A stretch of DNA of 46,177 nt from Candidatus Eisenbacteria bacterium (GTDB taxonomy: Bacteria > Eisenbacteria > RBG-16-71-46 > SZUA-252). The stretch is from positions 1 through 46,177 of the forward strand of contig VBOW01000030.1 of the NCBI GenBank assembly GCA_005893275.1. Direction: 5' to 3'. Shown here piece by piece: positions 33,856 through 34,067 of this stretch (positions are counted from its first letter, which is position 1; each line of letters begins with the position of its first letter). The translations under genes were made by a program, and so were the position numbers. Below the pieces are notes generated by a model, which saw only the letters and a list, made by a program, of their open reading frames with translations, searched no databases and was not told where the DNA came from.

Positions 33856-33893
33856 CTAAAAAGAGCGAGGGGAAGCGTCGCCGCTTCCCCTCG
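33856..33893 (-). terminator. Perfect 12-bp intrinsic terminator upstream of thrH
   Basis: CGAGGGGAAGCG (33893-33882) and CGCTTCCCCTCG (33877-33866) form a 12-bp stem without mismatch around GCGA, followed by CTCTTTTTAGT on the minus strand. It ends transcription coming from lon, the aminotransferase gene, serA and the short ORF. Just upstream GCTTC (33897-33893) could pair with the GAAGC of the 5' arm, a weaker competing structure. Confidence 0.85.
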
Positions 33894-33901
33894 AAGCCTC
33901 C

Positions 33902-33960
33902 GGTGGACTGTTGGGATTCGCCAGCAGGCACCAGGCTAGGGCGCTCTAGATGCCGCTAGC
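33902..33960 (-). ncRNA. Two consecutive hairpins of a structured RNA element
   Basis: Minus strand, 5' to 3'. Hairpin 1 (33960-33935) pairs GCTAG with CTAGC and overlaps the stop codon of the short ORF. Hairpin 2 (33932-33902) pairs GGTG with CACC and CTGCTGG with CCAACAG (one mismatch) around CGAATC, about ten pairs in all. With the terminator at 33893-33866 this makes three hairpins in about 95 bases. I do not recognise a known riboswitch. It could be an attenuator, a small regulatory RNA or simply a stable 3' end. Confidence 0.45.
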
Positions 33961-34009
33961 TACAGCCACCTCCGCAGTTCAGTACATCCATTAAGCCGTA
34001 CGTGTGCAC
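33956..34009 (-). CDS. 17-residue cysteine/glycine peptide ORF with strong SD
   Basis: GTG 34009 to TAG 33956 encodes MHTYGLMDVLNCGGGCS. AAAGGAGGT lies about 6 bases before the GTG, the most complete Shine-Dalgarno sequence in the window, which is unlikely by chance in a non-coding gap. An in-frame ATG at 33991 would give only MDVLNCGGGCS. The C-terminal run Cys-Gly-Gly-Gly-Cys-Ser lists serine and its two direct products, and the ORF lies between serA and thrH ahead of a terminator, so a leader peptide sensing Ser/Gly/Cys charging is conceivable. A small metal-binding or regulatory peptide is the alternative. I recognise no named family. Confidence 0.5.
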   Translation of the reverse strand: MHTYGLMDVLNCGGGCS

Positions 34010-34038
34010 TGGACCACCTCCTTTCCGCGATGTCTGAA

Positions 34039-34067
34039 TGCTCAGGCCCATGTGGGAGATCTGTCAA
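34039..34067 (-). promoter_or_regulatory. Possible promoter of the short ORF unit
   Basis: TTGACA at 34067-34062 is a perfect minus-35 and contains the serA stop codon. Seventeen bases later the minus-10 would be TGAGCA, a poor match. If used, transcription would start just before the short ORF and end at the terminator, giving an RNA of roughly 170 bases. Confidence 0.3.

Follow-up and report, generated by a model that had tools for sequence, protein, structure and literature searches.

A candidate translation-coupled small RNA of Candidatus Eisenbacteria homologous to the actinobacterial RNA Ms_IGR-5

SgrS and RNAIII are dual-function sRNAs, each with a small ORF, while in the trp and his leader attenuators a short ORF, a structured RNA and a terminator lie on one transcript. 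Ms_IGR-5 (RF02471), an sRNA of Actinobacteria (Mycobacterium smegmatis and others), is listed in Rfam as non-coding, drawn with a helix GGUGGU/GCUGCC and given no assigned function; an actinobacterial sRNA lacking an explanation is what was already known of the family. The RNA has been confirmed as a transcript in S. lividans and S. avermitilis (PMC8079986, PMC8780764), and MS_IGR-5 homologues in M. abscessus and M. smegmatis show significant ribosomal reads in Ribo-seq (PMC4974804). Here we describe a homologue in a 46,177-nt contig of Candidatus Eisenbacteria bacterium (the window, meaning the whole stretch analysed; the source assembly comprises 95 contigs). Somewhat better than evenly, we favour a free-standing, single-copy, translation-coupled RNA onto which a ribosome loads and which the ribosome unfolds. 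As in SgrS and RNAIII, the element forms an independent sRNA gene that also looks translated, although its ORF overlaps a conserved stem and encodes no conserved peptide. With the trp and his attenuators it shares the combination of short ORF, structured RNA and terminator, whereas no competing antiterminator was found and neither regulatory codons nor a downstream gene are conserved. The reach of the family beyond Actinomycetota, translation in the absence of a conserved peptide, the P1 core described below and the frame-switched variant of the window appear to be new; no statement of these points was found in openly licensed papers.

The element is an independent single-copy RNA gene on the minus strand, running from 34031 to about 33858 between serA, which encodes a 2-hydroxyacid dehydrogenase of the PGDH (SerA) type, and thrH; ThrH and, further on, PurA were likewise identified with Pfam/NCBIfam. 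It stands beyond chance by the fold of the whole gap (2.85 sd below dinucleotide shuffles, z -2.85), by its pairing with the 16S tail and by the matches of two covariance models (R1 and R2, below). All of the elements listed in the initial annotation were found at the coordinates given there, among them the -35 box TTGACA (34067-34062), which overlaps the serA TGA; TTGAC is kept in the aligned homologues, 39–41 nt 5' of GGAAAGG in 10/10 of the class homologues first aligned. A scan for sigma-70 promoters by strict consensus returned none, and the promoter is visible only by alignment, in which hexamers resembling a -10 box (GAGCAT, GAACAT, GACGAT, TACCTT, TAGTCT) follow at a spacing of 17–18 nt, each with A as its second and T as its sixth base. 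In the window the probable -10 box is GAGCAT (34043-34038) with an 18-nt spacer, and from its position the RNA is predicted to start at about 34031. At the other end the perfect 12-bp stem of an intrinsic terminator (33893-33866) is followed by five T residues within CTCTTTTT, the whole terminator occupying 33893-33858. Together with the R2 match (33898-34030) these boundaries give a predicted RNA of ~173 nt (34031-33858), and the fallback of the initial annotation, which allowed for an sRNA of ~170 bases or a small protein gene standing on its own, proved right. Promoter and terminator are its own and the neighbouring genes vary. The terminator tail CTCTTTT (33865-33859) is also complementary to AAAGGAG of the 5' block (34024-34018), a pairing that is predicted in the free RNA and is common in the family to which the window belongs.

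The 5' end of the RNA is dominated by an extended Shine-Dalgarno sequence. The block GAAAGGAGGTGGTCCAGT (34025-34008, minus strand) is complementary over 18 nt, G-U pairs included, to the 16S rRNA 3' tail CUGGAUCACCUCCUUUC, with a duplex energy of -35.1 kcal/mol; the same comparison gave -8 to -18 kcal/mol for seven other gene starts in the window and -14 kcal/mol for a strong canonical Shine-Dalgarno sequence. It is the longest run complementary to the 16S tail in the 46 kb (next best, 15 nt). The 16S gene of the assembly itself is partial (G000:C5:18741-19629), its 3' end being cut off by the contig end, and the match was therefore made to relatives, whose 16S 3' ends were taken from seven class genomes, including one from the family of the window.

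A DNA search found homologues in seven further genomes from the family of the window and in two from a second family. With small variations the aligned sequences share one order of parts: promoter, GCGGAAAGGAGGTGRTCCA, a start codon one base on, GCGGAGGTGGCTGT, the stop, GCGAATCCC, CAGNCCACCGG and the terminator. A covariance model built from these ten aligned sequences (R1) matched in 25/47 genomes of the class. A pattern, AGGAGGTGRTCC-N(14-42)-GAGGTGNCTG, run on 84,980 named species genomes returned at least 80 loci, and the matches listed are mostly from Actinomycetota, with others from Sumerlaeota, two 'Deltaproteobacteria', Nitrospinae, Zixibacteria, Acidobacteriota and Spirochaetia. A second RNA model (R2) was then made from 37 loci of Actinomycetota and other phyla, with none from the phylum of the window. 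R2 matched the window at 33898-34030 with 57.1 bits (E 1.3e-14; next-best match 7.6 bits), and it found exactly one match in each of 22/47 class genomes and, domain-wide, one copy per genome in 37/385 genomes. About half of the class genomes lack a copy detectable with R1 or R2. Near-identity of one copy on a contig labelled Acidobacteriota (L127) to Acidimicrobiia copies was also seen, and that contig is possibly misbinned.

The likeness to Ms_IGR-5 extends along the RNA: GGAAGGAGGUGGUCC at the 5' end, GAGGUGGCUG, GCUAG with the stop, GCGAAUNCC, CAGNCACC and a 3' terminator are common to both, the window differing in having CCACC with a bulge where Ms_IGR-5 has CACC. As in RF02471, a conserved promoter and terminator amid variable neighbours point to a free-standing transcript. 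The frame ...EVxxx* of RF02471 (GAGGTG, 9 nt, stop) is not that of the window ORF, which is read in a different frame owing to the loss of 1 nt ahead of the stop. At the Rfam gathering threshold no family matched in the gap; RF02471 was seen only in E-value mode, where its model gave 21.2 bits (E 0.3) on the window element (L016) against a threshold of 45, a threshold that the class relatives L036 (61.4 bits) and L033 (51 bits) do reach. Since R2, which contains no sequence of the phylum, matches at 57 bits, we regard the window element as homologous to RF02471, and at 21.2 bits we call it a homologue rather than a member as delimited by Rfam. Literature searches with the peptide strings gave no match, and these RNA families are absent from a 2017 survey of peptide-coding sRNAs.

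The micro-ORF of the window (34009-33956, minus strand) has 17 codons, MHTYGLMDVLNCGGGCS, with AAAGGAGGTGGTCC directly 5' of its GTG start at 34009 and a TAG stop (33958-33956). In 24/24 class homologues the start and stop share a frame, despite six ORF lengths and a 1-nt shift. Among the 80 matches listed, an in-frame stop lies exactly 9 nt after GAGGTG in 80/80, the search pattern having contained no stop codon. TAG (59), TGA (11) and TAA (10) all occur at this position and TGG never does; with G as the second base in 11 loci and as the third in 59, free variation of these bases would give TGG ~8 times, by an estimate that makes no correction for kinship. The start codons of the same 80 are TTG (41), ATG (24), GTG (8) and CTG (7), and the ORF is 12 codons long in 65 of them. 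Invariance of GAGGTG in this 80-locus set was imposed by its presence in the search pattern; the block is also kept in the loci found by covariance model. On Acidimicrobiia-type contigs (L082, L105, L122, L127, L136, L139) the ORF apparently starts with CTG at the conserved position.

In the window GAGGTG (33972-33967) precedes the stop by 8 nt, as it does in all 8 members of the family, compared with 9 nt in relatives from other families, and the frame ends in GGGCS* or GGGGS*. The block GAGGTGGCTGT carries Gly-Gly-Gly-Cys-Ser codons in the window where relatives of the same class read EVAVR*, so that the same nucleotides end in ...AEVAVR* in others and ...CGGGCS* in this family. The 1-nt deletion converted EVAVR* to GGGCS* while start and stop remained in a matching frame, and the Gly/Cys/Ser codons are thus a by-product of the frame.

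The 3' end of the ORF forms part of the structural core. The 5' strand of a long-range stem, P1 (GGTGGCTGT, 33970-33962, minus strand), lies inside the ORF and pairs with ACAG-T-CCACC (33911-33902), which has one bulged base. In its general form P1 joins GGUG-N-CUGN at the end of the ORF to NCAG-N-CACC ahead of the terminator. The terminal column pair beside CUG (64-145) is paired in 35/37 diverse loci as CG22/GC6/AU3/UA2/UG2, a signal that collapses in slid controls; the pair is formed in 91/102 loci against 61 in shuffles (maximum 75), and RNAalifold recovers it unaided. The strict pairs 57-152 and 58-151 fail in 7/37 loci because the bulge moves. P1 encloses P2 and an inner hairpin (33960-33919), supported by the consensus fold and the MFE structure; the 5' strand holds the stop codon, and 7 pairs show changes on both sides in the consensus fold of 10 homologues. 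Two hairpins of the initial annotation belong to this single long-range structure. A conserved, mostly unpaired motif, GCGAATCCC (33921-33913), is kept as far as Actinomycetota as GCGAATNCC. A further pairing, P0 (GUCC/GGAC), with 89% of cells paired and six both-side changes in one pair, has weaker evidence than P1. No covariation was found for the helix that Rfam draws. Whereas RF02471 is entered there as non-coding with GGUGGU/GCUGCC, in this comparison the RNA looks translated and P1 covaries.

The presence of a Cys-Gly-Gly-Gly-Cys-Ser ORF and a terminator on one strand with serine-pathway genes had suggested in the initial annotation an attenuator sensing Ser, Gly or Cys charging, in which a ribosome stalled on the leader codons would control the terminator before thrH. 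These codons are confined to the family of the window, the same nucleotides yielding EVAVR, EVTSS or EVPER elsewhere, and no conserved codons for a sensed amino acid, nor any conserved residue, occur among the homologues examined. The RNA was simulated in silico with no ribosome and with a ribosome at the start, in mid-ORF and at the stop. P(P1) is 0.96 in the free RNA and 0 once the ribosome has reached mid-ORF or the stop. The probability of the terminator stays at 0.986–0.993 across the four states, being 0.99 with the ribosome at the stop, and no competing antiterminator was found in any of them; being at least 0.986 in every state, the terminator is not gated by ribosome position. The neighbourhoods also argue against attenuation. 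In the family of the window the RNA gene lies 3' of serA and the next gene varies, being thrH, purA (in L018) or another gene (in L020). In another family of the class (L022, L024) it lies just 5' of an FMN riboswitch and ribD, the latter recognised by eye from its translated start. In mycobacteria the RNA is flanked by an aminotransferase class IV gene on one side and by a convergent gene of the THAP4-type heme-binding kind on the other, the M. tuberculosis copy presumably near Rv0812/Rv0813c, a region for which a literature search on sRNAs found nothing. Other homologues adjoin fur, acetyltransferase or MFS genes, and no recurring serine link was seen among the neighbourhoods compared. Directly 3' of the terminator, TATCAT (33855-33850, minus strand) lies 8 nt before the thrH GTG, and TATCGT or TATGAT stands at or near this position in the three other genomes of the genus; thrH may thus have its own promoter after the terminator and a leaderless mRNA. 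Attenuation of thrH by the element is not supported: given the frame switch, the varying neighbours and a terminator indifferent to the ribosome, we rejected it, and consider it very improbable.

Retention of start and stop in all homologues examined, the strong Shine-Dalgarno sequence and the ribosome footprints on the actinobacterial homologue (PMC4974804) could also be read as the marks of a micropeptide gene, with an 11–17-residue peptide as the active product and the RNA structure secondary. However, no residue is conserved across the set, and the EV motif is itself lost in the family of the window by the frame switch. At codons -6 to -4 only 7/44, 18/69 and 9/61 of single-nucleotide codon pairs are synonymous. 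In the matches listed, conservation of the islands GGAC and GAGGTG takes no account of codon phase: in the NGG-ACN island, position 1 of NGG (entropy 1.96 bits) and position 3 of ACN (1.89 bits) are both free, and by this analysis the conserved coding positions follow RNA pairing rather than codons. Of the two signs that the initial annotation had proposed to test in relatives, compensatory stem changes were found (P1 covaries) and peptide conservation was not, with little synonymous preference upstream. A peptide as the conserved product is disfavoured by the codon-phase analysis, and we regard it as improbable. The match to the 16S tail, at 17–18 nt far above a normal Shine-Dalgarno sequence, kept across phyla and present in one copy per genome, would also suit an RNA acting in trans on the 16S 3' tail as antisense or sponge, of the 30S-binding or hibernation type, with translation incidental. 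Incidental translation would not be expected to keep three different stop codons in 80/80 of the matches listed, nor to have its frame restored after indels; this reading is unlikely, if less so than the micropeptide gene.

What the genome comparisons show, at the level of sequence, is an independent unit with a 16S-tail match, start and stop, an ORF of 11–17 codons, P1 and unrelated neighbourhoods; the element looks translated, and it is being translated, rather than any peptide, that looks conserved. In the translation-coupled RNA that we favour, the very strong Shine-Dalgarno sequence would capture a 30S subunit, and the ribosome would translate some twelve codons before pausing at the stop codon. 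There GAGGUG would lie ~8 nt behind the P-site codon, at Shine-Dalgarno distance, and P1 and P2 would be melted, exposing the 3' strand ACAGUCCACC and the motif GCGAAUCCC. Since a resting ribosome would melt P1/P2, the RNA would alternate between a folded and a ribosome-opened state. It could serve as a sensor, regulator or sponge for ribosomes, or expose a pairing site for an mRNA, and its conserved output would be the act of translation rather than the peptide. Ms_IGR-5, entered in Rfam as non-coding, looks in this comparison translated wherever seen, with start and stop kept and a core structure other than that drawn. An unexplained sRNA would thereby offer a testable example of an RNA for which being read by the ribosome is itself the conserved act, and since homologues occur in genetically tractable actinobacteria it is practical to test.

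More tentatively, and at rather less than an even chance, the window element, Ms_IGR-5 and perhaps the Caulobacter sRNA CC2171 (RF01867) may be branches of one ancient, multi-phylum RNA class that is loaded with 30S by near-perfect antisense pairing to the 16S tail, read for about a dozen codons and unfolded at the stop, acting as a gauge or brake of free ribosomes, with translation selected and not the peptide. CC2171 resembles the window element in its 5' GAAAGGAGGUGAUCCAGUG, in the same 16S-tail match and in a start codon directly after it; its model gives 25.3 bits on the window against a threshold of 75, with the remaining alignment poor, and CC2171 is a lead only, which may represent a distant branch of the same RNA. 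RF01867 matches L016, L022 and L024 weakly through the 5' block, sharing the 16S-tail match followed by GTG, and by eye its consensus holds an open frame of ~22 codons. In a subgroup of the taxonomic class (L027-L031, L034, L035, L037) TTGACA is absent and a conserved hairpin, GGGAGGG-TTG-GGTCCCTCC, lies 5' of the 16S-complementary block; its CCCTCC could pair instead with the GGAGG of the same RNA, in the manner of a switch that masks the Shine-Dalgarno sequence.
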